DNA from: Deltaproteobacteria bacterium | GTDB lineage: Bacteria; Myxococcota_A; Polyangia; HGW-17; JAJRWW01 | Length of the DNA stretch: 59,829 nt | Direction: 5' to 3' | Assembly: GCA_029938605.1 (NCBI GenBank) | Contig: JAOZUO010000027.1 | Span: forward strand, 1 to 59,829 | Shown here: piece after piece, positions 8,099 to 53,109 of the stretch | Numbering within the stretch: position 1 is the first letter of the stretch | Layout: each line of letters begins with the position of its first letter | Translations under genes and position numbers: made by a program | Notes under the pieces: generated by a model | Seen by the model: the letters and a program-made list of their open reading frames with translations, nothing else | Told to the model about the DNA's origin: nothing | Databases searched by the model: none

Positions 8099-11000
8099 CT
8101 AGCGGTGGGGTAAGGTCACCCTTCGACGCAGCAGAGTCGGGTACAGCGGCGAGGTACCGAACCCCATGAGGGCGGCCAGTTGCGGCTGGCTGGCCACCAG
8201 TCCGTCTCGAATGGAGCGATCGAGGGGGGCCGGGTGGCCCAAGGAGTCTAGAGCCACCTCGCCGCCGGACTCCACGAAGAGCTGAACTGCCAAGGCATGG
8301 AGAGCGTGGTCGAGCTCGCCGGTAGCCAACAGGGCGATGCGGTTGGCCGCCTCCAAAGCGGCGGAGCGGTACTCGGCCAGGCCCACGGGATCCCGCAGGT
8401 GGTTAAAGAAAGCCACCTGCAGACCCTCCATAGCGGCGTTGTCGAAATGCTCGGTGCTAAAACCACGATCCTTCAGTCGCCGTAGAATGGAAAGATCAGG
8501 GGTGGCGCTCTTGGGCAGTGGGATGTCAAATACCTGGGCCACGGTGTCCAGAATCAGCAGGACCTGCTCGGAGGGGTAGGACAACAGCAACAGGGACCCT
8601 GCGCGGACGAGCTCCAGAGCCCGGGCGAGGACGAACCGTGCCTGGGGCGGAGGCCAAGAAGCCATCCGCGGATCCACGAGCAACACCGGCGGGAAGGAGA
8701 AAATCACCGACACAGGCGCCTTGGGACGCCGGGCAAAGACCGCCCCCACGGGGCCGGGATCCAGCATCTCCTTGAGGACCTCGAGGGTGGCGGCGATGTC
8801 AGATCCGTGCTCGTCGTCAATCTCCGGCCCGAGCTCCGAAGGATCGATGGGCGGCGCCAAGCGGCCCAGTTGAGGGTGGAGCCCGGAAAAGATCGAGCGA
8901 AGGGGAACGTTGGCCGTATCCGGTACGGCCGGACCGAAGACGGCGAGGCTCTTGACGAGGGCGCCACGTATTTTGGATTCCGCGATGGAGGGCAGTTGCG
9001 GTTCAGGAGGAGTGCCTTCGAGGAAGCCCAACACAGCCTTGTGGTTCACTGACTGGATGGAGTCGCCGAGCCGGGCACAAAGCCGCACCATGAACCGCCG
9101 CAGTGGCACCTGGGACGGATCCTTGTTCAGGAGCCGCTCTCCGGTACGGGTCCAGGTGGGTAGGGCGCTGCGCCCCAGGGCCGAGTCCAGCAAGTCGAAG
9201 ACCCGTCGCAAATCCATGGCGTCGGCAGACGTGGAATGAAGCCCCTGGACGATGTCCGCCAGCAGCCAGGTGGCCTGCTCGGGGTTGAGGTCCGAAACCT
9301 GCATCTCTCGGATGATGGTGGGGGCTAGGCGCGCGGTGTCCCCGCCTCCGAGGAGGGATGCGACGGAGATGCCGAGGATGGCTGACGCCAACGCCGCCGG
9401 GGGAGTGTCTCCCCGCTCCTCGAAGAGCTGACGCTGGTGAAGGTGCGCCGCCTGCAGCTCGGGCCATCGCCCGGTGCGGGCATAGTGCGTCGCCACCCGG
9501 GCGAGGATCTCCAGATCGTCCGAATCCAGGTCCGCCGCCGTGAGGAAGCAGCGCGTGGCGCCACGGTCGTCCAGAAGCCGCTCGGCCCGAAGCCGACCCT
9601 CTTCATACAGGAGCCGGGCCCGCCGCTGGGGTTCGGCGGTGATCCCAGAAAGCCTCTGGTACGTATCGGCCAGATCGGTCCAACGCTTAGCCGATCGGTA
9701 GATCTCCACGAGTAGGGCCAGGATGTTCCGGTGATCCGGATAGCTTTCGTGGAGCCGCTCCAGACCAGCGGCGGCGCGATCGGGTTCCCCCAACCGGAGC
9801 TGCACCCGGGCGAGCTGGATCCCCGTGGCCCAAAGGCGGTCCTGATCCGTGGGCGGCACGACATCGAACAGCGCCTCCAGGGTGGTCGCAGCATCAGCGT
9901 CCCGGCCATTCAACAGCAACAGCCGCGCCTGGGCCTCCAACGAACCCAGGTGCCCCCCCCGCAGCCGGATGGCTTCGGCATAGTGGGACAGGGCGCCATC
10001 CTCGTCGCCCAGGGCCTCGGCGATGACACCGCGGCGGTAGGCGAGATCAGACGCCTCCAGGGAGCCGGCGCGATCGCCGAGCCGTTCGTAAAGCTCCGCC
10101 GCCTCGGCAAACTCGGCGCGGGTGAAGGCGAGGTCCGCCCGGGCATCCAGAGCGGCGAGATCATCCGGGCGCAGAGCGAGCACCTCGTCAAAGACACGAG
10201 CCGCCGCGTCCAGGTTCCCGATCTTATCCCGCCACAGGGCCCCCAGGGCCATGAGCAGGTCCAGCTTCTCCTCGGCCGACGCCGTCACCACCCGCTGCTC
10301 CAACAGATCGGCCAGCCCCTCCGAGTCCCCTTCTCGCTCCAACACGCGCCGGCGATGCTTGAAGGCGCTGCGGTCGTGGGGATCCTCGGCGAAGAGCGCC
10401 TCGGCGTGGCGCTCGGCGCGCTCGGTCTCCCCCTGCTCGGTCGCCAACCCCACCAGGTGGCGCAAAAAGGCCCGCCGCAGGGCGCCGGTCTCGAGGTTCT
10501 CGAGACGGGACTCGAGCAACTCCATGACCTCGGCTCGCAAGGGCTCGGTGGTGGCCCTGACCAGGTACTCCGCCGCCTCCTGCACAAAGGCCACCCGACT
10601 GGTGCGAACCACCTCGGCGTGCAGGGCGAAGGCGTCGGCGGGCTGATCGGCTCTCCCGTACAGCCCCGCCACCTTCATGAGGGCTTGGGCGCGCACCGTG
10701 GCGTCGGACTCGCCTTCGGCCAGGGTCCGCTCCAAATCCGCCGCCCGACCCCACTGGTGATTGTTCGCCAGGAGCCTGGCGAGGGTTCGCCGGACCTCCA
10801 GGTCCTCGTCTCCCACCAGGTCGTGAGCCTCTTGAGCAGCCTCAACCGCATCCTCGAGCCGTCCCAGCCGGTTCTCCAGCAGATCGGCACATTTGAGCTT
10901 CAGCTTGGCCCGAGCGCGGGGCTCGGTCTCCGCTTCGAGCTCTCGCTCCATCAGGGTCAGAGAGGTCTCCCAGTCGCCGCGCTCGAGGGCAAAGTCCCGC

Positions 11001-14000
11001 AGAGCGGCCACGGCCTCGACATTGTGGGCGTCCACCGCCACGGCCTCGCGGAAGCAGCGCAGGGCGTCGCCCCCGAGGTTGAGGATGTCACGGTACAACA
11101 GCGCCCGGCGATACCACAGTCGTCCCCGGGCCTTGGGCTCCACGGTCAGCCCGATCTCCTTGCCCATGGCGTCGGCCAGCTTCTCCCAGTTGCCCAGGGC
11201 CGTGTAGAGCCGCACCAGGTCTTGGAGCACCCCCAGATTGGTGGGGTCGAGCCGGGACGCCGCCACCAGATGGTCGATGGCCGCCTCATTGTCGTCCAGC
11301 TCCTGGCAGATCTCGCCGGCCAGGGAGTGGGCCACGGCTTGAGCGCTACCCTCGGCACCCTGGATGGCCGCCTTGGCGTGATCCAAAGCGGGCCCGGCAT
11401 CACCCTGCTCAAACCACACCCGCGCCGCTCCCAGGTGCGCCTCTACATGGCCAGGCGCCAGGTCCAACACCTTGAGGTACTCCTGCAGTCCCTCGTCGGC
11501 GCAGTCGAGTACCTGCACGAGCAGATCGCCCCGCTCCAGGTGCAGAGCCGCTTTCTCAGCGTCCCGAGACACCTGTAGCTCTTCATCCAGGACCGCCAGG
11601 GCGTCCCGGGGGAGCTGCGCCCGCACCAGGAGCTCTCGGGCCATGCGGCCCAGCTTCCGCCTTCGGTGGGGCTCGATACGGAACAGCTCCAGGAGCATGG
11701 CCGCCGCCTCGGCAGGCTGCCCCAGGTGATCGGCCAGCACCCGGGCGCGCTTGACCAGCAGACGCTGGCGGACGGGGAGCTCCTCGGTGCGATCTGCGAG
11801 CTCCTCCAACAGTGCCGCCAGATCCCTGAAGCGACCGTTGGACTCATAAATCTCCACGAGCAGCTCGCCGCCCCGAACGGTCAGGGCGCCCCGACCCCGG
11901 GCGCGCTCGAACACCGCAAGGCCCTTGTCCGGACGGTCCAGCTTCTCCAGGTAGGTGCGGCCCAACAAGGCAAAGAAGCCGGAAGCGGACTCGGCGTCCA
12001 GCACCATAGTGTCCACAGCCTCGTCCAAAATCTCCACAAGCTCGACCCACTGCCGCTGGTTCGCCAGCAGATCCACCAGGGCTCGGAGCCGCCGAACATC
12101 ACTGGGGGCAGAAAGCAGGGCCTGGCGGCGGTAGTTCTGGGCGGCGGCCGGATCTCCCAGGTGACTGATGGCGAGCTCGGCCAGCTCGTCGGCCACAGTG
12201 GCCCGCTCCGGCCCATGCATCCGCTCGAAGGAGGTCTCCAGACGACCAAACAGCTCGGCCCAATGCTCCCCTTCGCGCAGCAGGGTAAGCAGCTCCCTAC
12301 CGGCCCGCTCATTGTCCGGGTCGGCCTCCAGACCGTCCTCGTAAAAACGAATTGCGTCGGAGGGACGATTCAGCCGCCGGGTAGAGATCTGGGCAGCGCG
12401 CAGAAGCTGGACAGCGCGCTCGGCTCCCGTCTTCTGTCCAGCGAGATCCACCACCAGCTCGAGTAGCTCCTCGTAGGCCTCATCCTGTACCAGAAGCTGC
12501 TCCAGCCGACTGGAGATCTCCTCGGCGGTGGGATCCACCACCAGGGCCAGGCGTAGCTGGGCCCGAACCGCCAGACGGTCCTCAAGGGCCAGGGCTACGT
12601 CCGCGAGCATCAGATGCACCGCGACGGCCCGCTCCTCGGGCGGGCCACCGAGCTCGCGCAGACGGAGACCGTAATCCCAAGCCACGAGCCACTCCCGACG
12701 CTCGCCGTGGTAGCTCACCAACGATGCCAACAGCTCGGCGTCGTCCGGGCCCGCGGTGAGTCCCAGGGCCCAGAACGAGGCGGCGCGATCCAGGTCGTCG
12801 AGCCCCTCGATGGCCACCCGCGCCATCTCCGTGTAGGCGGCCCGACGCTCCTCGGAAGACAAGGCCCCGAGCCGTAGGGACCACGCTGAGATATGGCGCT
12901 CGTGGTCCTGGGCCAACAGACATCGAGCGCGGGCCTGATCGAAGGCCTCCTCATGGGCCGGGTTGAGCGACAGCGCTCGAAGTAGCAGCTTCAGGGACCG
13001 CTCTGAGCCACCCTCCTCGTCGGCCAGTAGCCCCGCGGCGGTGACCAGATCCTCCGCCGCGCTCTGGCGGTCGGACTGTCCATCGGCAAGCCGGGCGGCC
13101 TCCTCCAGAGCCTCCACGGCCCGTTGCGATTGCCCCGTGGAACGACAGGCGATGGCCAGACGGCGAAGCACACCCGGATCCTCGGGTCGGGCCTGGCGCA
13201 GATGCTCATAGATCTCCAGGGCGCCGGTCCACGCGGCCCGCGCCTCGCACAATGAGGCTAGGCGATCCATCTCCAGCGACTCCGCCACGCCGAGCTCGAA
13301 CAGATCCCGGAGTCCCGCCTCCTCGTGCACGGCGTCGTCTTGCTCCCGGGCTAAAACCACCACGGTGCGCAACGCCAGGGACCGACGGTGGGCCAGCCGG
13401 GTCTCCTCGGCGGCCTGGCGGGCGTACCGTCGAGCCAGCGCGAGATCCCCTACGAGGTCCCGCTCCAACTCGCTCCGGCGCAAGGAGATGACCGACCGCT
13501 CCTCCCGGTGGTCCTCGGGCAGTAGATCGTGGGCCGTTGCCAGGGCAAGTCGGGCGGTCTGCAGATCCCGGGTCTGGGAGGCAGCCTCAGCAAGGCGCAG
13601 GTGGATCTCCGCCTCACCGGGAACCAACTCCACCGCCTGGCGCAACCGCTCCTGGGCCTCGGGCCAGGACTCCTGGGCCGCCAGCGCGTCTCCCAGGGCA
13701 GCCAACCAGGCTCCCCTGGAGGCCGGCTCGGACGCCAGGTCCACCAACCACTCCAGGGCCCGTAGCTGCCCGGTGGTGTCGCCCACCTGGTCACAGGCCT
13801 CGACCAAATCCCGCAGCAGGGCCTCGGTGGCCCCGTCGTCGACCGGCTCCCGATCACCAACCTCCACCAGCCGCCACAGGTGAGCAATGCGCGCCGGATC
13901 GTCTCCCCGCCGGGCCGCCAGGTCCACGGCGCGGCGCAAGATCGGCTCGGGATCATCGGCGCCATCGGCCAATTTACCCAGGGTGACCTCCGCCTCCTCG

Positions 14001-17000
14001 AGCCGATCCAGCTCCTCCAACAGGCGAACCCGGAGCTCCAGGGTTTCGCCCATCGGATCGTCCCTCGGGACCTCGCCGCCCGACTCCGCCTGTCGCCTCT
14101 CCGGAAGGTCAGGCAGCCGGTCCAAAAGCGCCAGCGCAGCGTCCGGCTGCGCCAGGTGCTCGGACAGGAGCCGAGCTCGCCTCAGACCCAGGCGACTCCG
14201 CTCTTCCACAGGCAACGCTGACCCCTCACAAGCCTGCTCCAGCAACCGCGCTAAAGGCTCGTACTGCCCTTCGCGCTCCTTGTGGGTGGCGAGTCGAAGC
14301 AGATCATCCAACCGCTCGGGCGCATGGGCCACGACGGCCTCCAACCACGCATAGGCGAGGTCGGGATCGGAATCGGCGGCGGCGGCTCCATCACCTTCGA
14401 TCCAGAAGGTCACGATGTCCGATAGCAGCGCCGCATCCTCGGTGGACGCATCCTCGCTGTCAACCAGCCGCGCCGCCAGGTCTTCCCCAGCCCGCCTCAC
14501 CGCCCCCACCAAACGCAACCGGTTGCGAGCGCTTCCACCTCCTCCTTCGATCAGGCGTCCGAGGGCCTCGGCCGAGGTGGGGTTCTCCTCGAGCACGAGC
14601 AGCAGACAGGTCTCGGCCTTCTCCGGCTCACCCGCGCGATTCAAATAGTGCTCGGCAGCCTCCAGCAGCAGCCCTTGACGATGCGCTGGCTGGTCGGCCC
14701 GTCGGGCATCCTCCTCCAGGGCCCGGGCCAGATCCCCATAGCGCCCCGCGTCACTGAGCAGTTGACGCTCCCGCGTTCTCAGAATCCGGGTCAGCTCCCC
14801 CGCCGGCCGGCCGGGCTCATCCGGGGCCGAAGGCGCCTCTCGGAGCACCCGCAGGGCGTCATCCAACCGCCCGAGGTGCTCGTACGCGTCGGCCAAAGAC
14901 AAGGCATCCCGGGGCTCGACGCGCAGATCCCGCAGCCACTCCATTACCTCCGCCGCCTCCCCCCACTCCTGCTCCGCCAATGACTGCAGAGCCCAACGGT
15001 GCAGCACCTGAATCAGTCCATCCCCCTCCATGGACGCCGAAGCGGCACGCCACGCCTTGCGGGCCAGCGCCGGGTCCTTAAGTGGCCCCAGCCACAAGTC
15101 CGCGATCTCGCGGTACAGTCCGGCCAGGAACGTCCGTCGCTCCGGCTCAAGGTGACCCTCAGACTTCAGGCGCCGCCCCAGCTCCTCGAGCTCCTGGACG
15201 CAGAGCTGATGGTCCCGCCGGATCGCCGCCGACTGGGCCAATCGAAAACGCGCCAGCTCATGGGTGGGATCGCGCTCCAGAGCCGCGGAGCAGCGTGCCA
15301 TCGCGTCCTCGGCATGATTCGGCACCAGCAGGTACAACCGTCCCGCCTCGGTCTGCAGGTCCGACACCCCCTCGTCGCCCCGGTCCAAGGCAGCAGCGAT
15401 GCGGCGGTCAATGACCGTGAGCAGCTCATAGGCCTGCCGCTGTTGCCGAGCCACCTCGCCCAACCGTTCCAGGGCCTCGGCATGATCCGGACGCAGCGCG
15501 AGGATCCGGTCGGCGGTCCGCGTCAGCTCTTCGGGATCATCCAGCCGATCGGCGGCCAGGGAGAGCATGGCATCCAGAGCTGCCAGGGAGAGGTCCTCAT
15601 CCCCCCGCAACCCGGCGCGATCGGCGAGCTCCGCACGAGCCTCGTAGGCCTCATTCCAGTCTCCCCGGGCTTCGTGGATCCGCGCCGCCAGCCCGTAGAC
15701 CTCGTCGCTGCGCTCATCCGCGGTCAGCTCCTTGAGGGCCTGCAGCGCTCCGGCAGGGTCGGCCAGGGCGTCGAGGCGCAGCGCACCCCTTTCGCAGATG
15801 GCGGCCACCCGTTCGACATCGTCGTCGGTATGCTCGGCGAGCCGGCCCAGGGCAAGCTCCAGCTGGGTTGGGTGATCCGCTTCGCGGGCGAGATCCACCA
15901 GGGACCGTAGCAGCGAAACCTCCTGACAGCCCTCAGCGTAGGCCTCCTCCAACAACTGGGCCCCGGCGGCCCGTTCGCCCAGCTCCTGTCGCAGAAGCGC
16001 CCCCAGCTCAAAGAGCAACTCGCCTCGGGAGGGCAGGCTCGCCGCCCCATCCGCCTGCGCCAGGGCAAGCAGACGCTCGAGGGTACGTCGCCGCTCCACC
16101 GGGTCCTCCCGAAGCTGCCGGAGCAGCCCCGCCAAGCGATTCAGGGTCGAGACATCATCCGGCGTGCGCCTCAGAATCTCGCGACACACCGCTGCCGACT
16201 CCCGGGGCAGGTCCAAGCGCTCCCCGAGGATCACCGACAGCCTGAGTAGCTGCTTCGCCGCCGCTCCCGCGTCAGACTCCCGCTCGGCGCGATGCCGCAC
16301 CACCTCGGCCAGTTTTTCCCACTGCCGCTCTCCTGAGTACAGCTCGTCGAGCAACTCCAGGGACTCACCGTCGGCCGGCTCGAGCTCCAGCACCGCCGCC
16401 AGGTGAGACTCCACCGCCTCGATCTCCGACCCCGCCAAGGCGATCTGAGCGAGGGCACGGTGTATGTCGAGGCGCGCACTTCGCTCCGCCTCGGGAGACA
16501 GTCCTTCGGAGGGACCCAGCTCCAATAGCCGAACGAAGGACTTTTGGGCCGTTTGGTGATCACCACACGTCAGGGCGTCCTGTCCCACGAACAGCAGACC
16601 AGCACGGTGATCTCCATCCAGCTCGAGGACTCGATCGTAGGTGGAACGCGCCGCCTGGGGGCGGTCGAGCCGCTCGGCGTACAGCATGGCGAGCTCATCG
16701 AGCAGAGTGACCGCGTCGTCGGTGGCATCCAGCAGCTCAATCTTACGCTCCAGTAGACGCGAGACCTCTTCCCAGTCTTCGGAGCTGGCCGCGATCACCG
16801 TGAGCCCGTTGAGCGCCCCGAGGTGATCTGGGCGCCGCCGCCCTATGCGCTCATAGAGCCGCCCTGCGCCGTCCGAGTCGCCAAGGCGCCGGCGCCGGAT
16901 CTCAGCCGCCGCGAAGAGTCGATCCACACGACTGGACTCCCCGAGCTCCGCCGCCTCGTCCTCTCCAGCCGCCTCCATGGTGTCAGCCGCCTCACCCCAA

Positions 17001-19897
17001 CGCCCCGCCCGCGCCAGGAGATCCTGCAACGCGTCGTAGCACTCCACCGCCGTCGCGCCCGAGGGGCTAGCCTCCAGCGCCTCCTTCAGCAGATTAATGG
17101 ACGCCTCGGACTCTCCCCGCCGGGCGGCCAGTTGTCCCAGCCGTAGGAGCACCTCCCCGGGGCGACCGTGGGCGGGATGATCCCCGTGCTGGACCTGGCC
17201 AAACATGGATTCGGCCTCGTCCCAGTGCTCGAGGGAGAAAGCCACATCGCCCAACAACACCAGCGCCTCGGGATCCTGGGGCGCCAGCCGCACCGCGGCC
17301 TGCAACACCACATACGCGTCCTCCAATCGCTCCTGCTCCCGGCGCAGGGAGCCGAGCTCCTTGAGGGCGGCGCCCTGTCGCAGGGCATCTCCCTTGCCCT
17401 CGGTCACGGTGGCCAGCCGCTCCAGGAGACTCTCCCGTTCGGCCTGCTCATCGGGGTTGCCGAGCAGGTCCGTGAGGGCCATCAGAGGCCGTGGATCGTT
17501 GGGCACCGCGGCGTGCAGTCGCCGGAGCTGTCGCTTGGCCTCGTCGCGCTGGGCGTCCATCCCCGAGAGAATTCCCCCCAGAGTCAACATCCACACCACG
17601 TCCGACTCATCCACCTCCCCGCCGGCAAAGACGTGACCCGAGAGCACCTGGAGGGTACGGAGCAGAGGATCGGACCGCCCTGTCTGCTGCTGAATCTGCG
17701 CCACCAGCCCGAGCGCCTCCCTGGCGGCTGGCAGCTCCGAATCCACCACGGGCTCTAAGCACTCGATGGCCGCCGCTCCCTCGTCCAGGGGATCGATCAG
17801 TAGCCGCGCACGATGCAGCAGCAGCCCGGCTTGTTCCTGCGGATCATCCGTGCGGGCGGCCCGACGCGCTAAAAGCTCAGCCATCTCCCCGAAACGCTCC
17901 TCATCCTCGGCCAGCCGGAGGGCGAGGGCGAGCCCCTCATCCGTCTCCTCGGCGGCCAGGGAGGCGTCCACGAAGATTCGCGCGCCAGCGGGATCGGCCA
18001 ACCCCTCGAGCCGAACCCGCGCCAGCTCCAGCGACACCAGGGACCGACTGTGGGTGGTCATGGAGTCCAAGGTCAGTAACCGCTCCAAGGTCTCGGCGGC
18101 CAGGTCCCACTGCCCGGCTCGGGCACAGAGCCGGCCGTGCTGCTCCAGGACATCGGGCTCCTCCGGCGCGGTCTTCAGCAGCCCGCCGGTGACTTCGAGG
18201 GCCCGACCGATGTCTCCCGCGTCAGCCCAGGCCTGGGCCATGCGGCGCCTCGCCAGAGACATGGCGTCGGTGTTGCCCGTGGTCTCGCATAGGGTGACCA
18301 CGCGCTCGAGGGCCTTGCGCTCCTTATCAAAGGCACCGGCCAGTCGATGGGCCTCGGCCAGCCCGTTCCAGGCGGGGAGGCTGGAGTCGTCCAACCGCAC
18401 GGCGCGCTCATACTCGGCCCGCGCGCGGAGGGGATCGTCCATCAGGTTGAGGTAGATCTCCCCCAGGGTCAGGTGACCCCGCAATCGCTCACGGCGACCT
18501 GTGGCCCGGGCCAGGTAACGCCGCTGGAGCCGGAGCAACTCCGGAAGACGCCCCGCCACACGATACAGTCCAATGAGGGCCTGCACCGCCTGCGGTAGGT
18601 CCGGGTCCAAGGCGAGGGCGCGCTCGTACCAGGATGTGGACCGGGCGGGATCCGTAGCCGAGAGCAGGCGGCCACAGGCCAGGGTAGCGAGCACTGCTTC
18701 GCGCACGTCTCCCCGTCGTTGGGCCATGGTGGCCAGAGCGGCATACCGCGAGGCCGCGTCCTCCACCTCGCCGAGCTCCTCGGCGGTGCCGGCCAAAACA
18801 AAGAGAGCGGGCTCGTGCTCCGGTTCTTCGGCGAGGGTGCGTCGTGCCAGGCGACGGGCCTGCTGGATCGTGTGAGGCGAGCAAGAGAGTAGCTCCAGCA
18901 GCCGCTGTAGGACGAAGGGGTCCTCAGGGTCGATTCGATGGAGACTGTCATACTGGGCGAGGGCGCCGGCCACATCTCCAGCGGCCAGCAACCGCTCACC
19001 CTTGCCGAAGCGATCGATGAACTCCGCCTCGGCGAACGATTTCGGCAACCCACCCGAAGCCGTAACCTGAAGAACATGGCGAGGGGCTTCGCCTCCGGCC
19101 TCGCCCTCCCCGGCCTCACCCTCTCCGGCCTCACCCTCCCCGGCCCGGACATCGGCAAATCGTACTGAGCCGGACACGTCCGTGGAGATATCCTCAGGCG
19201 TTGCATACACGACCTGCAAGCCGTCAGGAGACACCTGCAGCCGCTCGAGCACCACTCCGTGGACGGCGGGTAGGCGCCAGCCATTGGCGGGCAGCAACTG
19301 TCGGAGCACCAAGCCCAGGAAATCCACCTCCACGGCAGTGGCCCCCTCCAGGTGGTACAGCGGACGCGGCGGATCTTCGGGGACGGCGCGCACCCCGGCC
19401 GCAGCCACCAGGCCGACACCGAGCAACGGCGATGGCAGGGGCAGATATCCATAGGGACGCCAGTGGTCCAGCACCAGCCGAATCCGCAGGTCGTTAGAGG
19501 CCACCACGCTGACCCGGGACGTGAAGGGGACCTGCCGATCCCCCAGGCGGGCGACCCCTTCGACGCGGATAGCCCCGTCCATCCACCGAAGGGAGAGCTG
19601 ATGGAACCCGTAAGACGCCAGGGAATCCCGAGCAACAAACCAGGAAGAAAAAGCCTCGGCCTCTACCGAAGCCTCGTACCGCCGCAAACGACATCGCCGG
19701 TGCCGAAAGCGCCCCGCACCGCCGCTGACGTCAAAGGGGAAGGAGACCCCCGGAACCTCCAAGGCGAGATGATCCAGCCGGACCAAGCCGCTCAGGTGGC
19801 GACGTCCTAGGGTCACGTGTGCCTTGCCCCCCAGGAAATCCAGGGCAAACCCAAGCGGGTTGTCGCTGCGCTCTTTGGAGCGCCCGTCCGTGGTCAA
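8099..19897 (-). CDS. Giant TPR protein 1 with degenerate M48-like C-terminus (GltI/AgmK-like)
   Basis: About 3,930 aa, no signal peptide, very acidic, so most likely cytoplasmic. Three parts are visible. (1) A beta-rich N-terminal domain, residues about 25-230, with alternating strands and conserved-looking FPFDVSGGAGRF. (2) An acidic EGEAG repeat linker and then roughly 3,300 residues of tetratricopeptide-type helix pairs, with recurring LxxLY, WxxA and LDPDxxxAL patterns. (3) A C-terminal domain resembling an M48 metallopeptidase without metal ligands (8581-8655 and 8305-8375). There is no ATG: the frame opens with TTG at 19909, and a second TTG at 19897 has GGAG six bases upstream, so I use 19897. 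The size and make-up resemble giant TPR protein 2 and GltI (AgmK) of Myxococcus. It is probably followed in the same mRNA by the radical SAM gene. Confidence 0.85.
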   Translation of the reverse strand: MTTDGRSKERSDNPLGFALDFLGGKAHVTLGRRHLSGLVRLDHLALEVPGVSFPFDVSGGAGRFRHRRCRLRRYEASVEAEAFSSWFVARDSLASYGFHQLSLRWMDGAIRVEGVARLGDRQVPFTSRVSVVASNDLRIRLVLDHWRPYGYLPLPSPLLGVGLVAAAGVRAVPEDPPRPLYHLEGATAVEVDFLGLVLRQLLPANGWRLPAVHGVVLERLQVSPDGLQVVYATPEDISTDVSGSVRFADVRAGEGEAGEGEAGEGEAGGEAPRHVLQVTASGGLPKSFAEAEFIDRFGKGERLLAAGDVAGALAQYDSLHRIDPEDPFVLQRLLELLSCSPHTIQQARRLARRTLAEEPEHEPALFVLAGTAEELGEVEDAASRYAALATMAQRRGDVREAVLATLACGRLLSATDPARSTSWYERALALDPDLPQAVQALIGLYRVAGRLPELLRLQRRYLARATGRRERLRGHLTLGEIYLNLMDDPLRARAEYERAVRLDDSSLPAWNGLAEAHRLAGAFDKERKALERVVTLCETTGNTDAMSLARRRMAQAWADAGDIGRALEVTGGLLKTAPEEPDVLEQHGRLCARAGQWDLAAETLERLLTLDSMTTHSRSLVSLELARVRLEGLADPAGARIFVDASLAAEETDEGLALALRLAEDEERFGEMAELLARRAARTDDPQEQAGLLLHRARLLIDPLDEGAAAIECLEPVVDSELPAAREALGLVAQIQQQTGRSDPLLRTLQVLSGHVFAGGEVDESDVVWMLTLGGILSGMDAQRDEAKRQLRRLHAAVPNDPRPLMALTDLLGNPDEQAERESLLERLATVTEGKGDALRQGAALKELGSLRREQERLEDAYVVLQAAVRLAPQDPEALVLLGDVAFSLEHWDEAESMFGQVQHGDHPAHGRPGEVLLRLGQLAARRGESEASINLLKEALEASPSGATAVECYDALQDLLARAGRWGEAADTMEAAGEDEAAELGESSRVDRLFAAAEIRRRRLGDSDGAGRLYERIGRRRPDHLGALNGLTVIAASSEDWEEVSRLLERKIELLDATDDAVTLLDELAMLYAERLDRPQAARSTYDRVLELDGDHRAGLLFVGQDALTCGDHQTAQKSFVRLLELGPSEGLSPEAERSARLDIHRALAQIALAGSEIEAVESHLAAVLELEPADGESLELLDELYSGERQWEKLAEVVRHRAERESDAGAAAKQLLRLSVILGERLDLPRESAAVCREILRRTPDDVSTLNRLAGLLRQLREDPVERRRTLERLLALAQADGAASLPSRGELLFELGALLRQELGERAAGAQLLEEAYAEGCQEVSLLRSLVDLAREADHPTQLELALGRLAEHTDDDVERVAAICERGALRLDALADPAGALQALKELTADERSDEVYGLAARIHEARGDWNEAYEARAELADRAGLRGDEDLSLAALDAMLSLAADRLDDPEELTRTADRILALRPDHAEALERLGEVARQQRQAYELLTVIDRRIAAALDRGDEGVSDLQTEAGRLYLLVPNHAEDAMARCSAALERDPTHELARFRLAQSAAIRRDHQLCVQELEELGRRLKSEGHLEPERRTFLAGLYREIADLWLGPLKDPALARKAWRAASASMEGDGLIQVLHRWALQSLAEQEWGEAAEVMEWLRDLRVEPRDALSLADAYEHLGRLDDALRVLREAPSAPDEPGRPAGELTRILRTRERQLLSDAGRYGDLARALEEDARRADQPAHRQGLLLEAAEHYLNRAGEPEKAETCLLLVLEENPTSAEALGRLIEGGGGSARNRLRLVGAVRRAGEDLAARLVDSEDASTEDAALLSDIVTFWIEGDGAAAADSDPDLAYAWLEAVVAHAPERLDDLLRLATHKEREGQYEPLARLLEQACEGSALPVEERSRLGLRRARLLSEHLAQPDAALALLDRLPDLPERRQAESGGEVPRDDPMGETLELRVRLLEELDRLEEAEVTLGKLADGADDPEPILRRAVDLAARRGDDPARIAHLWRLVEVGDREPVDDGATEALLRDLVEACDQVGDTTGQLRALEWLVDLASEPASRGAWLAALGDALAAQESWPEAQERLRQAVELVPGEAEIHLRLAEAASQTRDLQTARLALATAHDLLPEDHREERSVISLRRSELERDLVGDLALARRYARQAAEETRLAHRRSLALRTVVVLAREQDDAVHEEAGLRDLFELGVAESLEMDRLASLCEARAAWTGALEIYEHLRQARPEDPGVLRRLAIACRSTGQSQRAVEALEEAARLADGQSDRQSAAEDLVTAAGLLADEEGGSERSLKLLLRALSLNPAHEEAFDQARARCLLAQDHERHISAWSLRLGALSSEERRAAYTEMARVAIEGLDDLDRAASFWALGLTAGPDDAELLASLVSYHGERREWLVAWDYGLRLRELGGPPEERAVAVHLMLADVALALEDRLAVRAQLRLALVVDPTAEEISSRLEQLLVQDEAYEELLELVVDLAGQKTGAERAVQLLRAAQISTRRLNRPSDAIRFYEDGLEADPDNERAGRELLTLLREGEHWAELFGRLETSFERMHGPERATVADELAELAISHLGDPAAAQNYRRQALLSAPSDVRRLRALVDLLANQRQWVELVEILDEAVDTMVLDAESASGFFALLGRTYLEKLDRPDKGLAVFERARGRGALTVRGGELLVEIYESNGRFRDLAALLEELADRTEELPVRQRLLVKRARVLADHLGQPAEAAAMLLELFRIEPHRRRKLGRMARELLVRAQLPRDALAVLDEELQVSRDAEKAALHLERGDLLVQVLDCADEGLQEYLKVLDLAPGHVEAHLGAARVWFEQGDAGPALDHAKAAIQGAEGSAQAVAHSLAGEICQELDDNEAAIDHLVAASRLDPTNLGVLQDLVRLYTALGNWEKLADAMGKEIGLTVEPKARGRLWYRRALLYRDILNLGGDALRCFREAVAVDAHNVEAVAALRDFALERGDWETSLTLMERELEAETEPRARAKLKLKCADLLENRLGRLEDAVEAAQEAHDLVGDEDLEVRRTLARLLANNHQWGRAADLERTLAEGESDATVRAQALMKVAGLYGRADQPADAFALHAEVVRTSRVAFVQEAAEYLVRATTEPLRAEVMELLESRLENLETGALRRAFLRHLVGLATEQGETERAERHAEALFAEDPHDRSAFKHRRRVLEREGDSEGLADLLEQRVVTASAEEKLDLLMALGALWRDKIGNLDAAARVFDEVLALRPDDLAALDARADLAFTRAEFAEAAELYERLGDRAGSLEASDLAYRRGVIAEALGDEDGALSHYAEAIRLRGGHLGSLEAQARLLLLNGRDADAATTLEALFDVVPPTDQDRLWATGIQLARVQLRLGEPDRAAAGLERLHESYPDHRNILALLVEIYRSAKRWTDLADTYQRLSGITAEPQRRARLLYEEGRLRAERLLDDRGATRCFLTAADLDSDDLEILARVATHYARTGRWPELQAAHLHQRQLFEERGDTPPAALASAILGISVASLLGGGDTARLAPTIIREMQVSDLNPEQATWLLADIVQGLHSTSADAMDLRRVFDLLDSALGRSALPTWTRTGERLLNKDPSQVPLRRFMVRLCARLGDSIQSVNHKAVLGFLEGTPPEPQLPSIAESKIRGALVKSLAVFGPAVPDTANVPLRSIFSGLHPQLGRLAPPIDPSELGPEIDDEHGSDIAATLEVLKEMLDPGPVGAVFARRPKAPVSVIFSFPPVLLVDPRMASWPPPQARFVLARALELVRAGSLLLLSYPSEQVLLILDTVAQVFDIPLPKSATPDLSILRRLKDRGFSTEHFDNAAMEGLQVAFFNHLRDPVGLAEYRSAALEAANRIALLATGELDHALHALAVQLFVESGGEVALDSLGHPAPLDRSIRDGLVASQPQLAALMGFGTSPLYPTLLRRRVTLPHR

Positions 19898-20056
19898 GTC
19901 TATCTCCAATCCCTATACCCCGCGAGTCATCTTCTTTAGGAGGCCAATGCTCGCTGTCGCAGTGTATCTCCCCGCCCCCGCCAATACCATAGGGAATCTG
20001 GCCAGTGACCTCACCCCCGGAGTCCATCATCAAGTCCACATCAGTGGAGGTACCGG

Positions 20057-23861: not shown

Positions 23862-25337
23862 TCAGGCCATGGGCACGCGGATCGTAAACCGTGATCCTCC
23901 TTCGGGGGCACTCTCCACGTCGATGCTGCCGCCATGCTCGAGTACGATCTTCTTCACGATGGCCAGGCCCAGGCCCGTGCCCGAGCCCTTGGTGGTGAAG
24001 TAGGGATCGAAGACCCGATCCCGTAGGTCGTCCGGAACGCCGGGGCCGTTGTCGGTGAGGGTAATAAGCGCCACACCGGAGTGCACCAGGCGCCGCGCCT
24101 GAATCGATACTCGGGGACGATCTCCCGCCTCCTGGGTGGCTTGGTAGGCGTTCTCCACAAGGTTGAGGAGCACCCGCCTAAAGAGCAGACGGTCGACCTT
24201 GATGTCAAACTCCGGCACCGGCGGCGTCCAGTCCAACTCGCCCACATCTTCCAGCTCTCCCAGAGAGCGGCGGAGGTCGTCGACCACCAGGGATATCTGG
24301 GTGGGCTCAGGCTGTACCTGGGGCAGCTTGGCAAAGGCGGAGAATGCCTCCACCAGTCGCCGCAAACCGTCCACTTCCTCGTGCACGATCTCCGCCGCCT
24401 CGTCGAGCAGCTCGCGGTACCGTGGATCGTCTCCGTCGTACTTTCCCTGGACCTGCTGTATGGCCAGGAGGATGGGGGTCAGCGGGTTCTTGATCTCGTG
24501 AGCCAAGCGGCGAGCGACCTCCTGCCAGGCGCTGATCTTCTGGAGATAGGCGATCTGAGCGCGGTTCCGCCGCAGCTCGGCGACCATCTCGTTGAAGGCG
24601 GCGTTGAGTTGGCCAATTTCGTCACGGGCGCGGGTCGGAACGGCCACGTCGAGATCACCGGCGGCGACACTCTTGGTGGCCCCCGAAAGGCGACTGAGAC
24701 GTTTGGAGAAACGCCGCGCAAACACCAACCCGACGACGGTGACGATGAGCATGGCGCCGCCAAAGAAGCGGAGAAACGACCAAACGGAGTAGCGCTGCAG
24801 CTTCTGATCAGCCTTCTTCACGTGGGGGGATTCCACATCGAGCTTTCGGACCAGATGCTGGAACCGCTCGGTGGCCTGGCGTTGAATCGGGAACTCCACC
24901 ACGAGAGTCCAACCCGTGGCACCGATGGGCTTGTACAACCGAAAGCGGCGCCCCTGATCCCCTTCGGAGCCCTGGACTGCCACCATCCGCTCCGAAGGAT
25001 CCCGTACGGCGAGCCGCTCAAGGTCCTCGTTGCGACTCATGGCCTGGGCGAGGGCCTGTCGCATCTCCTCGGGGTCCCGGTTCCACACGGCGTGCGTCAA
25101 CAGGGGCAACTCGGCCACCGAATCGGCGATGATGTCGTATCTCTTTTTCTGGGTGCGAAACAGCTCTCGATACACCGGAGGGACCGTCCGCAGCTCCGTC
25201 TCCAGCTCGCGAATGTACCCCCGCAAGGTAGCGGTGGAGACCTGCACGGTGGAGTCGACCAAATACAGCGAGAAGAAGAAAAAGCTCGCCGAGATCAGCA
25301 GCAACAAGAGCACCAGTTTGACGCCGAATCGCCCCAT
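23862..25337 (-). CDS. NtrY-like membrane sensor histidine kinase
   Basis: 491 aa. Membrane segment at residues about 7-27, an extracytoplasmic domain to about 194, second membrane segment about 195-217, HAMP linker about 208-260. The H-box is RLAHEIKNPLTP with the phosphorylated His280, and the ATP-binding domain has the N-box NLVENAYQA, DNGPGVPD, FDPYFTTKGSGTGLGL. The HEIKNPLTP form and the layout resemble NtrY-type kinases. The usual partner, an NtrX-type sigma-54 activator, is not adjacent. It starts 4 nt after the DUF4390-like gene, so it is the last gene of the operon running from 27616. Confidence 0.92.
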   Translation of the reverse strand: MGRFGVKLVLLLLLISASFFFFSLYLVDSTVQVSTATLRGYIRELETELRTVPPVYRELFRTQKKRYDIIADSVAELPLLTHAVWNRDPEEMRQALAQAMSRNEDLERLAVRDPSERMVAVQGSEGDQGRRFRLYKPIGATGWTLVVEFPIQRQATERFQHLVRKLDVESPHVKKADQKLQRYSVWSFLRFFGGAMLIVTVVGLVFARRFSKRLSRLSGATKSVAAGDLDVAVPTRARDEIGQLNAAFNEMVAELRRNRAQIAYLQKISAWQEVARRLAHEIKNPLTPILLAIQQVQGKYDGDDPRYRELLDEAAEIVHEEVDGLRRLVEAFSAFAKLPQVQPEPTQISLVVDDLRRSLGELEDVGELDWTPPVPEFDIKVDRLLFRRVLLNLVENAYQATQEAGDRPRVSIQARRLVHSGVALITLTDNGPGVPDDLRDRVFDPYFTTKGSGTGLGLAIVKKIVLEHGGSIDVESAPEGGSRFTIRVPMA

Positions 25338-25341
25338 AGAT

Positions 25342-26049
25342 CTATGGCCCCACGTTCCACGTAGATTGTGTGCAGTACTTGACCCGCTTGAGGGCCCGGC
25401 TGATCCGGCTGTGTACTCGGATCACCACCGCGGGTGCGATGGGAGAGCCCCCACGGATAATGCGCGACTTTCCCTGGTTCATGATCCACCGACGGATGCG
25501 GGCGGCCAGAGACTTGGGCATGGGCGCGAAGAGAATGCGGATCTCCACGTAGAACTTCATCTTCACCGGGAACCGCTTCATGGCCCCCACCAGCAGGGTC
25601 ACATTCGCAATGCGCCTCAGCGCCTTCCGGAGGCTATTTTCGCGGTAGAAGTGCGCACCCCAGGAGTCGTGCACAGAAATGCGATAGGTGCCTGCCCATA
25701 CGTCGTAGGAGACCCGGCAGTCCCGGATGATGGTCTTGATGCGCCGGTTCCCCTGCTTGCGAAAAACCGTAGCCTCCAGGTAGATGTGCCGTGAAATGCC
25801 CGACTTGAGCTTCTTCTTCAACCGCTTATCAAAGAACTTACGAAACTTGAAGGACAGCAGGATGTTCTTCTTCCGGGGGTCCTCGAAAAAGCGAACCACC
25901 TTCCAGCGACCATGGTGACACCTACGCGCAAAAGCGGGTTCCACCGATGCCGCCAGGCCCATGAGCACCAATAGCGCGACCAGCAGCACCCGGGGGGTGC
26001 GGCGACCACGGCTACGTGGGCCTTTACCTTGGTATCCAGCCCAGCGCAT
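25342..26049 (-). CDS. Secreted DUF4390-like protein
   Basis: 235 aa. The ATG at 26049 overlaps the end of the barrel gene by 26 nt and opens a basic N-region plus hydrophobic signal segment (VLLVALLVLMGLAASV, cleavage after AFA). The mature part is strongly basic: LLSFKFRKFFDKRLKKKLK, a beta strand region with VSYDVWAGTYRISV, then an EIRILFAPMPKSLAARI block. The order of elements and its place directly before an NtrY-type kinase match DUF4390 proteins known from other proteobacteria, whose function is unknown. A longer in-frame opening back to 26454 lies wholly inside the upstream gene and is rejected. The ribosome-binding site is weak, so translation is probably coupled. Confidence 0.62.
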   Translation of the reverse strand: MRWAGYQGKGPRSRGRRTPRVLLVALLVLMGLAASVEPAFARRCHHGRWKVVRFFEDPRKKNILLSFKFRKFFDKRLKKKLKSGISRHIYLEATVFRKQGNRRIKTIIRDCRVSYDVWAGTYRISVHDSWGAHFYRENSLRKALRRIANVTLLVGAMKRFPVKMKFYVEIRILFAPMPKSLAARIRRWIMNQGKSRIIRGGSPIAPAVVIRVHSRISRALKRVKYCTQSTWNVGP

Positions 26050-27616
26050 TGCCAAAAGAGAGGATGAAGACCCCGACGTAGGTATCCAGCCGGAAGCCAA
26101 CATCGAAGACCATATCAATGGGGGTGGCCTGCCGCAGCCCTTCGTCTCGGACGCGGAAGTCGTCCTCGGAGAGCATCGTGAGAAGCCCCACCGAGACGTA
26201 GAAGTTGGAGTTGTACACGAGTCGACCGCCCCGCGACAGCGGGATGTCGTAGCGTATGGCCATCCGTCCGGCGATGGTCTCATAGCGCTTGTCCACGATG
26301 GAGTTTGAAAAGAGGTTCCGACTCGGGCGGGTGGCAAAGTTGAGCCCCAGGGCCCTCCGGGGCACCTGCTCGTTGAGGTCACCGATGAAGAACTTGTTGT
26401 AAAGAGGGGTCTTGCCAATGATGACCCCTGCGTAAAGCTGCAGTGAGACGACATGGTGGTACCACGGCATCAGCCAGTACTTCTGAAATGACGCCACCAC
26501 CTTGGCGAACTGATAGCTCGATCCGATGTAGGTAGTGGCCAGCTCGGCGGCGATCTCCAGACGCATGCCGCTTGTGGGCATCACGGGGTCATTTCGGGTG
26601 TCCCGGACGAAGGTGGCGGCTACCGAGGACAGGAAGCTGTTGCCGTCAATCAGATCGAACGAGAGCCGCTCGGGGCGCCCGTCCGGGAAGAACCGCACGG
26701 CCCCCTGGGGAAGACTCGCGGTGATCCACTCGAACCGGAAGTCCAAATAGACCATGTTCTGGGAACCCAGGGCGCTAAACAAACCCAGGATGCCGCCCAG
26801 GCGGCTATAGCGCACCGCCGAGAAGTTCTCCACGTCCGAGCCGTTGGGGTTCTCGCCCTTGATGCGAAACAGATCGGACGCCTCTGCGTGCAGGAGCATC
26901 AGGGACATGCCCACCCGCCGGGCGAAGAGCCGTGGGTAGGAGAAGCGGAGCTGCTCCGCATGCTGAAGCCGTGCACCAGCGGCGACGTCCTTGGCCGCCG
27001 CCCCTACGACGAACGCGGCCGACAGATGCAATCCACGACCCAGGAAATTGTTCTCGGCCAGATCCAGCCCTCCCCAAAACGGCGTCGCGTTCGAGTATCC
27101 CAGGTGTAGCGCCTGCACGACGATGGTGCCGCGTTCACGCACCCAGATATTCAGGATCACGCGCCCGGGCTTCGACCCCTTGGACAGGGAGAAGGAGACG
27201 TCACGGAACAGGCCGCAGGCGAGTAACTTCAACCTCGCCTTGGCGATGCGCGGATCGGAGGCGGTGATAACGTCTCCCTTGCGGATCTCCAGCTTGTTCC
27301 GGATCACGCTGGGGTGGGTGGACCGGCGGCCTTGGATGCGGATGCGCTCCACCGTGTACCGGGGCGCATCGTCGGAGACGAACGCTCCCGGATGGGGCGA
27401 CAGCGCCGGACGCCCGGGTCGCGCATTCCCAGGACGCTCCACCGGTGCGGCCCGGGGACGCTCCACCGGTGCGGCCCGGGGACGCTCCACCGGTGCGGCC
27501 CGGGGACGCTCCACCGGTGCGGCCCGGGGTGCCGCGACCGCCTCGGTCCAAACCAGGCAACCAAGCACCACCATGGAGCAAGCGCCAGAGCGCCAAATGT
27601 GCGAAAGCCGCGGCAT
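26024..27616 (-). CDS. BamA/TamA-family outer-membrane barrel with short POTRA region
   Basis: 530 aa. Start at 27616 fits because GAGGAGG lies 6 nt upstream and a signal peptide follows (cleavage near AVAA). Residues about 28-65 are four nearly identical RPRAAPVE units encoded by a 24-bp tandem repeat. One POTRA domain follows (VERIRIQGRRSTHPSVIRNK to VILNIWVRERGTI, about 80-175), then a long beta-rich region consistent with a 16-strand Omp85 barrel (LGYSNATPFWGGLDLAENNF opens it). With a single clear POTRA it is smaller than BamA, which has five, and is more likely a TamA-like or specialised Omp85 protein than the essential BamA. First gene of an operon with the DUF4390-like protein and sensor kinase. 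Confidence 0.82.
   Translation of the reverse strand: MPRLSHIWRSGACSMVVLGCLVWTEAVAAPRAAPVERPRAAPVERPRAAPVERPRAAPVERPGNARPGRPALSPHPGAFVSDDAPRYTVERIRIQGRRSTHPSVIRNKLEIRKGDVITASDPRIAKARLKLLACGLFRDVSFSLSKGSKPGRVILNIWVRERGTIVVQALHLGYSNATPFWGGLDLAENNFLGRGLHLSAAFVVGAAAKDVAAGARLQHAEQLRFSYPRLFARRVGMSLMLLHAEASDLFRIKGENPNGSDVENFSAVRYSRLGGILGLFSALGSQNMVYLDFRFEWITASLPQGAVRFFPDGRPERLSFDLIDGNSFLSSVAATFVRDTRNDPVMPTSGMRLEIAAELATTYIGSSYQFAKVVASFQKYWLMPWYHHVVSLQLYAGVIIGKTPLYNKFFIGDLNEQVPRRALGLNFATRPSRNLFSNSIVDKRYETIAGRMAIRYDIPLSRGGRLVYNSNFYVSVGLLTMLSEDDFRVRDEGLRQATPIDMVFDVGFRLDTYVGVFILSFGNALGWIPR
27432..27527. repeat. Four perfect 24-bp tandem repeats
   Basis: Exact copies start at 27432, 27456, 27480 and 27504, in frame with the barrel gene, and encode the RPRAAPVE units just after its signal peptide. 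An in-frame minisatellite can change copy number without breaking the gene. Confidence 0.95.
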
Positions 27617-27634
27617 AGCCTCCTCGGCATGAGA

Positions 27635-27643
27635 TGATATAAT
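27635..27643 (+). promoter_or_regulatory. Extended -10 promoter for lipoprotein/receiver operon
   Basis: TGATATAAT: a perfect TATAAT at 27638-27643 preceded by TG at the extended -10 position, with no good -35. It would start transcripts near 27650, just before AAGGAG and the ATG at 27670. The minus strand of the same AT-rich patch (TATTAT) may serve the divergent barrel operon. Confidence 0.5.
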
Positions 27644-27669
27644 ACCCACCGATACTAAAGGAGTTCACC

Positions 27670-28155
27670 ATGCCGGGGCAATCCTTCCAAACATTTCTCG
27701 GTGAAACTGCGAGACGACGGATCTCCTTCGGGATCCTGCTGACCACGCTGCTTTCCGCGGGCTGTACGGATTTGCGGGACTATACCGGCACCTGGCGAGG
27801 CAATATAGTACGCAGCTCATACCTGCGACATGGATTCGACTCCGAGACCAGCGCGGTACTCACGGTCGTGAGTATCGATCGATCGACTTTGACCGGCCAT
27901 CTCCAATTGACCCCGAGCCAAGACTCCACCTCCGGGTTCGACGCGACACTCATTCCGGTGATGGAGGCGGAGAACGACGCCCTGGGAGACATGAGCTTCG
28001 ACGGAGATCCCCTCGCGACGTACATCTTTTTCGTGTCTCCGGTAGACACCAACGAAGCCAGCGCCCTGGTAATTCTGTCGGCTCACTCGAGGGACCGCAT
28101 GGAGATGCGCATCCTACGCCACGATCTCTACGGCGTCTTCAACCTAAGCAAATGA
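27670..28155 (+). CDS. Small lipoprotein of unknown function
   Basis: 161 aa. AAGGAG precedes the ATG. Lipoprotein signal with lipobox LSAGC (Cys32) after an Arg-rich N-region. The mature part begins DLRDYTGTWRG, reminiscent of the opening strand of lipocalin-like or other small beta-barrels, and continues with alternating strands (AVLTVVSIDRSTLTGHLQLT). No family recognised. Its last codon overlaps the start of the receiver-domain gene by ATGA, so the two are translationally coupled, which suggests the lipoprotein belongs to the same signalling unit. Confidence 0.72.
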   Translation: MPGQSFQTFLGETARRRISFGILLTTLLSAGCTDLRDYTGTWRGNIVRSSYLRHGFDSETSAVLTVVSIDRSTLTGHLQLTPSQDSTSGFDATLIPVMEAENDALGDMSFDGDPLATYIFFVSPVDTNEASALVILSAHSRDRMEMRILRHDLYGVFNLSK

Positions 28156-28541
28156 CCCTCTCATCAGACGACAAACTCTCCTTGCCCACGGTCGTCTACA
28201 TCGAAGATGACGCCCTATGTGCCGAGCTCGTGTCCGACGGACTGGCAGAGGTCTGCAGGATCCTGCGAGCCGCGGACGGACTGGCAGGACTGGATCTCGT
28301 GGAAAAGGTTCTCCCCGCGCTGGTGCTGGTGGACCTCCATCTGCCCGCCCTGTCAGGCTTTGACGTGATTGAGAGGCTGCGCACCAACTCGCAAACCTCC
28401 GACATTCCGGTGCTGGCCATCAGTGCCCGGATCATGGCTGGTGAGGAGGCCCGAGTGCTGGCAATGGGTTGCCGAGACTTCGTGGCCAAGCCCTTCCGAC
28501 TGGCCACCTTACGTCAGAAGGTAACTACTGCCCTGAGCTGA
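28152..28541 (+). CDS. Single-domain response regulator (CheY-like receiver)
   Basis: 129 aa, receiver domain only. The acidic pocket is E18-D19-D20, the phospho-acceptor is Asp61 in VLVDLHLPALSG, the switch Ser91 lies in AISA and the invariant Lys113 in VAKPF. There is no output domain, so it must act by protein-protein contact or as a phosphate relay. The start overlaps the lipoprotein gene (ATGA). An orphan sensor kinase is encoded about 3 kb away on the other strand, so pairing is possible but unproven. It converges on the CoA-transferase-family gene with 5 nt between the stops. Confidence 0.93.
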   Translation: MTLSSDDKLSLPTVVYIEDDALCAELVSDGLAEVCRILRAADGLAGLDLVEKVLPALVLVDLHLPALSGFDVIERLRTNSQTSDIPVLAISARIMAGEEARVLAMGCRDFVAKPFRLATLRQKVTTALS

Positions 28542-30194: not shown

Positions 30195-31232
30195 TTATTG
30201 GGAATAATCTGTACTCTGCGCGTCCACCGCCCGATGGGTGTGAGGTGCCACCTGGTCACCAGACTCCAGGCGCACTCCTTCCAATACGCAGTAGGGTTTT
30301 ACATGCACTCCATCGGCGAGGTGACAGTCACGCAAAACCACGCCCGTCTCCAGCCGACAGCGGTCGCCGATACGGGTCCGACCTGTAATCTCCACGCCGG
30401 CGGCAACCCGACAGTCGGTGCCGAACCGCACCGACGAGTGGACCACCACGCGCTCGGGGTCCTCCAAGAAAACCCCGCGGGCCATGAGCTTTGTCGACAC
30501 CCGTCGCCGTAGCACCTGGGCCACCGACGCGAGGTCTGCCCAGGTGTTCACCCCAGCAACCTCCAGGGGATCGCACTGCATCGCCACGGCGGAGTCATGG
30601 TCGCCGGCGGCGGCCACAAGATCGGTCAGGTACACCTCTCCGGTGGCGTTATCCGCACCCAAGCGACGGATCTCACGGCGCAAAAAACCCAGCTCCACGC
30701 AGTAGATTCCTGCGTTCACCTCGTCCACTTCGCGCTCCGGCCCGCTGGCGTCCAAGTACTCCACCACACGCCGCACCTGACGCCCCTCGCGTATCACCCG
30801 CCCATAGTGCGCGGGATCTTTGGGCCGCATGGTGAGCACGGCCATCTGGGCGTTACGCCGCTCCCGGAGCCGACGCAAACGCCCCAGGGTGCGAGCGGTG
30901 AGCAACGGCACATCTCCCGAGAGGATGAGCACCGATCCCTTGCGACCGCGCACCTTTGGGAGCGCCGCCGCCACAGCATCTCCAGTACCACGCTGCTGGC
31001 GTTGCAGGGCGAAACGAAGAGACTTGCCTTTGAACTGCCCCCTCAGCGCCCTCTGCACCGCCTCCTTTTGGTGACCCACCACCACCACCACCTCGCTCCC
31101 CTTCAGGCGCAAGGCCATTCGGACGGGATGTGCCACCAGCGGGAGCCCATCGAGGGGGAGAAGCATCTTCGAAAGAGAAGCGCGAAGCCGGGTGCCCCGG
31201 CCTGCGGCCATCACAATGCAGGATGTTGCCAT
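30195..31232 (-). CDS. GlmU-like sugar-1-phosphate nucleotidyltransferase
   Basis: 345 aa. The N-terminus MAAGRGTRLRASLSKMLLPL is the nucleotide-binding signature of NTP-transferases. The uridylyltransferase blocks of GlmU follow: QQRGTGDAVAAALP, SGDVPLL (metal-binding Asp), NAGIYCV and DNATGEVYLTDLV. A short left-handed beta-helix of hexapeptide repeats ends the protein (FGTDCRVAAGVEITGRTRIG onward). It is about 110 residues shorter than full GlmU, lacking the C-terminal acetyltransferase part. It therefore probably makes a UDP- or NDP-sugar without acetylating it, or depends on a second enzyme. It starts 21 nt after giant TPR gene 2 and shows no ribosome-binding site, so coupled translation is likely. 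Confidence 0.83.
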   Translation of the reverse strand: MATSCIVMAAGRGTRLRASLSKMLLPLDGLPLVAHPVRMALRLKGSEVVVVVGHQKEAVQRALRGQFKGKSLRFALQRQQRGTGDAVAAALPKVRGRKGSVLILSGDVPLLTARTLGRLRRLRERRNAQMAVLTMRPKDPAHYGRVIREGRQVRRVVEYLDASGPEREVDEVNAGIYCVELGFLRREIRRLGADNATGEVYLTDLVAAAGDHDSAVAMQCDPLEVAGVNTWADLASVAQVLRRRVSTKLMARGVFLEDPERVVVHSSVRFGTDCRVAAGVEITGRTRIGDRCRLETGVVLRDCHLADGVHVKPYCVLEGVRLESGDQVAPHTHRAVDAQSTDYSQ

Positions 31233-31253: not shown

Positions 31254-42941
<11,688 letters not shown>

Positions 42942-45688: not shown

Positions 45689-45940
45689 TTAAATATCTTC
45701 AGCGGTCTTAAGCATTTCCGGAATAAAATCGAACCGATACTCAATCAAACTCTTGTGAATCGGCTTGACCCGGCCACCGAGGAACTCCCCTTCAGGAGTA
45801 AGCAGAGCACCCTCGATATTATCCCCTTCGAAGTCAAAGACCTTCTTTTTGGCGTAGCCCTTCTTCTGGGCTGAGGCGATGCCCACCCCAGCCAAGGTAA
45901 TGGTCAACGCCACCGTGATTCCGAGGATCTTCTTCCACAT
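45689..45940 (-). CDS. Small secreted protein in the GltF position
   Basis: 83 aa. Strong AGGAGG before the ATG; Sec signal peptide (cleavage after IASA, residue about 24). The mature 59 residues begin with a Lys-rich segment and then KVFDFEGDNIEGALLTPEGEF and a C-terminal helix IPEMLKTAEDI. It is too short to classify by known domains. It lies between the GltE-like and GltG-like genes, where Myxococcus has gltF, a gene for a small periplasmic protein, so that identity is likely from order alone. Terminator-like hairpins separate it from the upstream gene, so it probably has its own promoter. Confidence 0.75.
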   Translation of the reverse strand: MWKKILGITVALTITLAGVGIASAQKKGYAKKKVFDFEGDNIEGALLTPEGEFLGGRVKPIHKSLIEYRFDFIPEMLKTAEDI

Positions 45941-53063: not shown

Positions 53064-53085
53064 GTGCAAAACCCCTTTATTCGTC

Positions 53086-53109
53086 CGGTTTCTAACCGTC
53101 ATTCGGTTA
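53086..53109. promoter_or_regulatory. Interlocking inverted repeats in the leader of the Glt-like cluster
   Basis: CGGTT (53086-53090), AACCG (53094-53098) and CGGTT (53104-53108) share one core, so the middle arm can pair with either neighbour; with the right one it makes TAACCG-TCATT-CGGTTA. Mutually exclusive hairpins between promoter and start codon suggest either a repressor with a repeated half-site or an attenuation switch. Confidence 0.4.

Follow-up and report, generated by a model that had tools for sequence, protein, structure and literature searches.

The closest described systems are the M48 metallopeptidases, the minigluzincins, the metallopeptidase pseudoenzymes and the myxobacterial gliding scaffold GltI, all of which are already known. 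In M48 (PF01435), including a soluble Myxococcota group with the motifs HELGH and ELSxDRAGLL, the order of the elements is helix, three strands, HExxH helix and Glu helix; the minigluzincins are represented here by proabylysin (PDB 4jiu). Inactive homologues of metallopeptidases are reported to act through protein-protein interaction, in a review of pseudopeptidases that does not mention M48 (PMC11266112). In Myxococcus xanthus the gliding genes are ordered gltD-E-F-G-H-I-J, GltD having 1191 aa and GltI being a TPR protein of 4132 aa without a signal peptide (PMC3169522), and GltI is regarded as a large scaffold that, together with GltG, couples the Agl motor (AglQ) to MreB tracks (PMC13104615).

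The stretch of DNA analysed here, referred to as the window (59,829 nucleotides of contig JAOZUO010000027.1, Deltaproteobacteria bacterium), encodes two giant TPR proteins, giant 1 and giant 2, with related C-terminal tails. These tails are predicted to follow the M48 order of elements, carry their motifs in register with those of M48 and are linked to it by profile matches down to E 6e-9; unlike M48, they lack HExxH, are fused to TPR arrays, possess an extra conserved C-terminal helix and escape the Pfam M48 model. Proabylysin is the best-probability structural match of the giant 1 model (E 1.3), although the tail, in contrast to the minigluzincins, has lost its active site and is a much larger domain. 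Giant 2 resembles M. xanthus GltI/AgmK in being a giant cytoplasmic TPR protein beside gltG in a glt cluster (PMC3169522), but differs from GltI as described in its dead M48 tail, since no such head on GltI or on other TPR giants was mentioned in the literature searched, the coverage of which was incomplete, so that this silence is weak evidence. The homology to M48, the zinc site missing from all members examined, the single dead clade and the linkage of the giant 2 tail to glt genes were computed here. Taken as a whole, it is probable that the tails form an M48-derived pseudopeptidase family that caps GltI and its paralogues and has been kept as a docking head.

The genes gltC-D-E-F-G-I form one run in the window (31254-53102, minus strand), a setting that the first-pass annotation had missed, with no gltH or gltJ recognised beside giant 2:

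31254 to 42941, minus strand: giant 2, a TPR protein of 3895 aa, most likely GltI/AgmK (single open reading frame; adjoins gltG; PMC3169522 Table 1)
31257 to 32156, minus strand: C-terminal degenerate M48 tail of giant 2, REISF ... EYSAN (profiles, hhalign, AF2)
43207 to 45468, minus strand: GltG-like protein, FHA plus TonB/AgmX-PglI C-terminal domain (NF033760, E 3e-95; NF033768, E 6e-27)
45689 to 45940, minus strand: GltF/CglF-like protein of 83 aa with a signal-peptide-like start (NF033764, E 1.4e-13)
46150 to 47661, minus strand: GltE-like TPR protein (NF033758, E 2.2e-15)
47677 to 51213, minus strand: GltD-like TPR protein of 1178 aa (by position and size only; TPR matches)
51333 to 53102, minus strand: GltC-like protein (NF033756, E 1.4e-85)

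None of the flanking glt genes comes up to its NCBIfam equivalog cut-off, and the NCBIfam scan of giant 2 returned no GltI match. The gene order, the size and the linkage to gltG identify giant 2 most likely as the cytoplasmic gliding scaffold GltI. Giant 2 could instead be another giant TPR protein that neighbours gltG by chance, as the missing GltI match and a comparison with M. xanthus GltI by gene order and size, not by sequence, might suggest; this appears quite improbable, given that the gene order is the same, that the sizes are similar (3895 versus 4132 aa) and that in 41 genomes GltG is encoded on the strand of the tail and 10.3-14.7 kb upstream of it, a distance taken only from genomes with both on one contig. 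GltG-like proteins of genomes devoid of tails have no recognisable GltI adjoining them; in the sample of the phylum no genome reached the GltG equivalog cut-off, and no cluster of the M. xanthus type was found. The AgmX/PglI C-terminal domain (NF033768) is found at 37 places in the genome of the window (G000). Directly after giant 2, and likewise in L113, there is a GlmU-like nucleotidyltransferase of 345 aa (window 30195-31232, minus strand); GlmU itself is longer, at about 450 aa. An Omp85/POTRA outer-membrane protein (window 26024-27649, minus strand) overlaps a DUF4390-like frame and has a kinase (23862-25337) on one side and a response regulator (28152-28541) on the other.

Giant 1 follows giant 2 on the same strand at a distance of about 11 kb, beside unrelated genes, and both giants occur in the same order on one contig of another genome (G003). 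Because it stands outside the glt cluster it was filed as a paralogue of GltI, a divergent one of giant 2:

8099 to 19909, minus strand: giant 1, a TPR protein of 3936 aa with a TTG start as listed (uninterrupted open reading frame)
8102 to 9031, minus strand: C-terminal degenerate M48 tail domain of giant 1, about 310 aa (profiles, hhalign, tree, AF2)
8270 to 8794, minus strand: M48-like core of this tail, with approximate limits (alignment to M48)
8609 to 8623, minus strand: RALEL at the HExxH position (motif and profile alignment)
8342 to 8356, minus strand: LEAAN at the ExxxD position, that of the third ligand (motif and profile alignment)

In G005, giant 1 has an orthologue of full length (3894 aa) that is 28% identical to it across residues 19-3920. 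The first approximately 260 aa of giant 1 (window 19119-19909, minus strand) make up a non-TPR N-terminal domain that is kept in the full-length orthologue in L078 and had no match in the Pfam scan.

The first-pass annotation had placed a dead M48-like domain at 8305-8655, with RALELVRAG where M48 enzymes have HExxH and AANRIALLATGELDHAL where they have ExxADRxGLL. Both motifs are inside that span and align in register with M48, the former starting at residue 3763 (Arg at 8621-8623) and the latter at residue 3854 (Asn at 8342-8344), whereas the domain itself is longer, at about 8102-9031. Its reading of the ligand positions as Arg/Leu and Leu is correct for giant 1 (RALEL, LEAAN), which has none of the ligands, both His of HExxH and the third-ligand Glu being gone; giant 2 retains the Glu of HExxH (REISF) and that of the third ligand (EYSAN), and lacks both His and the Asp of ExxxD. 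In giant 2 the Arg matching the giant 1 motif is residue 3744 and the Asn is residue 3837, so that the equal Arg-to-Asn distance claimed for the two giants holds, as an offset of 93 or 94 residues counted inclusively. Over 97 family members a spacing of 93 is the commonest (47/97; range 84-114), which indicates a real family trait and not chance. The single domain family that had been argued from this distance is borne out by the comparison of giant-1-type with giant-2-type tails, built from disjoint sets of sequences (hhalign probability 99.4 for a single pair, not calibrated against a database), and by the retrieval of giant 1, at E 2e-10, with a profile from which it had been left out.

The family is widespread: each of the 59 relatives searched (59/59) has proteins that match the final 300 aa of giant 2, most of these genomes having several copies, and the giant 2 tail profile finds matches in 97 of 189 genomes in a sample of the phylum. 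The genome of the window harbours 12 copies, of which giant 1 is the weakest. The copies are distributed over contigs C36 (twice), C289, C128, C115, C210, C328, C21, C358, C126, C78 and C8, their open frames range from 456 to 3937 aa, and some have no recognisable TPRs.

The descent of the tails from M48 is backed by HMM retrieval, profile-profile comparison, predicted structure and the tree. A profile built from dead members only was searched against 80 genomes picked for having no tail at E 0.001, and besides a few more dead tails it yielded many proteins of roughly 250-700 aa with HELGH and similar motifs, which mark them as genuine M48 peptidases (best E 6e-9). In L193 (E 6e-9 and 2e-8), L196, L194 and L204 the HELGH is aligned on the degenerate site, and the register sets HExxH against ARELT/REISF and ELSCDRAGLL against TANRAGLL; in the genome of the window, the only further profile match beyond the 12 tails is a genuine M48 protein. 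With an M48 profile made from peptidases of the same and related genomes, hhalign gave a probability of 96 (score 67.7) for the giant-2-type, or GltI-type, tails and of 55 (score 38) for the giant-1-type, compared with a maximum score of 16.1 in 40 column shuffles and 14.8 for the reversed profile as controls for the former, all of these values being for single pairs and uncalibrated against a database. The Pfam scan of the tails, the Peptidase_M48 model included, reported no significant family, and a sequence search of the PDB with the family profile returned chance matches only.

The structure prediction and fold search that had been proposed as a check gave a mixed outcome, with best-probability matches in the M48A and minigluzincin types and E-values that are not significant. 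The AF2 model of the giant 2 tail has a mean pLDDT of 90.8 and a pTM of 0.88, and that of the giant 1 tail, only moderately confident, a mean pLDDT of 69.5 and a pTM of 0.72. In Foldseek searches of the PDB the matches of giant 2 outstanding by probability (0.18-0.35) were Ste24p and ZMPSTE24, both M48A, and for giant 1 proabylysin 4jiu was found with a probability of 0.63 and a TM-score by target of 0.53; no E-value was significant for either tail (0.26-1.3), and the TM-scores were low over the full tail. The predicted secondary structure fits the M48/minigluzincin order, and the models, which agree with an M48 fold, support it while being no proof alone. An unrelated alpha/beta-helical domain with a chance resemblance to M48 would fit the lack of a Pfam match and the Foldseek E-values, but it is very improbable, as HExxH and ExxxDR of several independent genuine M48 proteins fall in register on two separate motif regions of the tail and the profile signal is far above the shuffled and reversed controls.

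The former active site of the family is eroded throughout. HExxH is found in 0/97 members, and both of its His are absent in all 97 bar isolated cases; the first ligand position is occupied by Arg in 56 and by Lys in 25 (together 81/97), the fifth position of the HExxH site mostly by Tyr, Phe or Leu, and the third ligand position by Asp in 39/97 and Glu in 34/97, with the Arg after ExxxD retained in 93/97. A salt bridge between the Arg/Lys of the first and the Asp/Glu of the third ligand position was considered and rejected, as the two showed no covariation (Fisher p = 1). Enzymatic activity through a non-canonical active site is hardly credible for these domains: the HExxH Glu and the third-ligand Glu are both kept in giant 2 and seven other members, which would suit such an activity, yet the His are lost almost everywhere, the first ligand is replaced by a basic residue in most members and giant 1 is left with no ligand at all. 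We infer that the tail no longer cuts and, placed at the end of the TPR solenoid, serves as a non-catalytic head for protein docking.

The most strongly conserved positions of the tail are not those of the former active site but the Trp/Arg/Asp of the Glu helix and residues of the C-terminal helix (L277 97%, R290 98%, G294 97%, I297 95%; also Ser283), and the conserved surroundings comprise the RPEH-type helix end, the W/R/D of the Glu helix and the C-terminal L-S-YF-R-LG-I helix, a distribution that suits a binding surface. A purely structural cap, closing and stabilising the TPR solenoid and having no specific partner, is an unlikely reading of the same domain; no partner is known, the zinc site has been replaced by variable residues and giant 1 keeps little besides the fold, as expected of a cap, whereas residues away from the active site and the helix following the M48 part are strongly conserved, which speaks against it, as does the presence of copies in proteins of very different size, from 456 to about 4000 aa. 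This conservation and these copies together suggest a portable function.

In a tree of 69 rows, comprising dead tails and active M48 enzymes, a branch with support 100/97 separates 52 dead tails from all HExxH enzymes, which are joined on their side by L112, a Pfam-M48 protein in which the motif pattern was not found. Giant 1 clusters with its orthologues L033-L035 (support 98/89). More distant dead tails come from other classes, in proteins of 800-960 aa (L190, L191, L192, L195 and L205), and those of them placed in the tree are sister to the main dead clade. As the active enzymes are outside the dead clade, the simplest reading, with which the tree is consistent, is that the active site was lost once, long ago, and that the tails then duplicated.

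Under the docking-head reading, the tail is a domain of M48 type (minigluzincin fold) that has lost both His of HExxH, and in giant 1 also the Glu ligand, and it belongs to one family of dead domains capping the giant TPR scaffold GltI (giant 2) and its paralogues. Docking would probably take place through the conserved surroundings of the former site, that is, the RPEH-type helix end, the W/R/D residues and the C-terminal helix, so that the tail of GltI would bind a partner from the gliding complex in the cytoplasm and that of giant 1 a different partner. The first-pass annotation had proposed that such a pseudo-protease could bind an unfolded or cleaved partner. A bolder version, which we regard as possible though on balance doubtful, is that GltI docks by means of its dead M48 domain, which would derive from an ancestral protease converted once into the piece that attaches this giant cytoplasmic scaffold to its partner in the gliding machine, and which would then have been copied to other TPR scaffolds, giant 1 among them, to build related envelope or motor complexes.

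The occurrence of related dead domains across many relatives of the myxobacteria suggests an old conversion of a protease into a docking part. The tails constitute a large and old clade of M48 pseudopeptidases, outside the Pfam models and undescribed in the literature searched. GltI is the largest cytoplasmic part of the myxobacterial gliding machine, and its conserved globular head would provide a defined piece of it to study.
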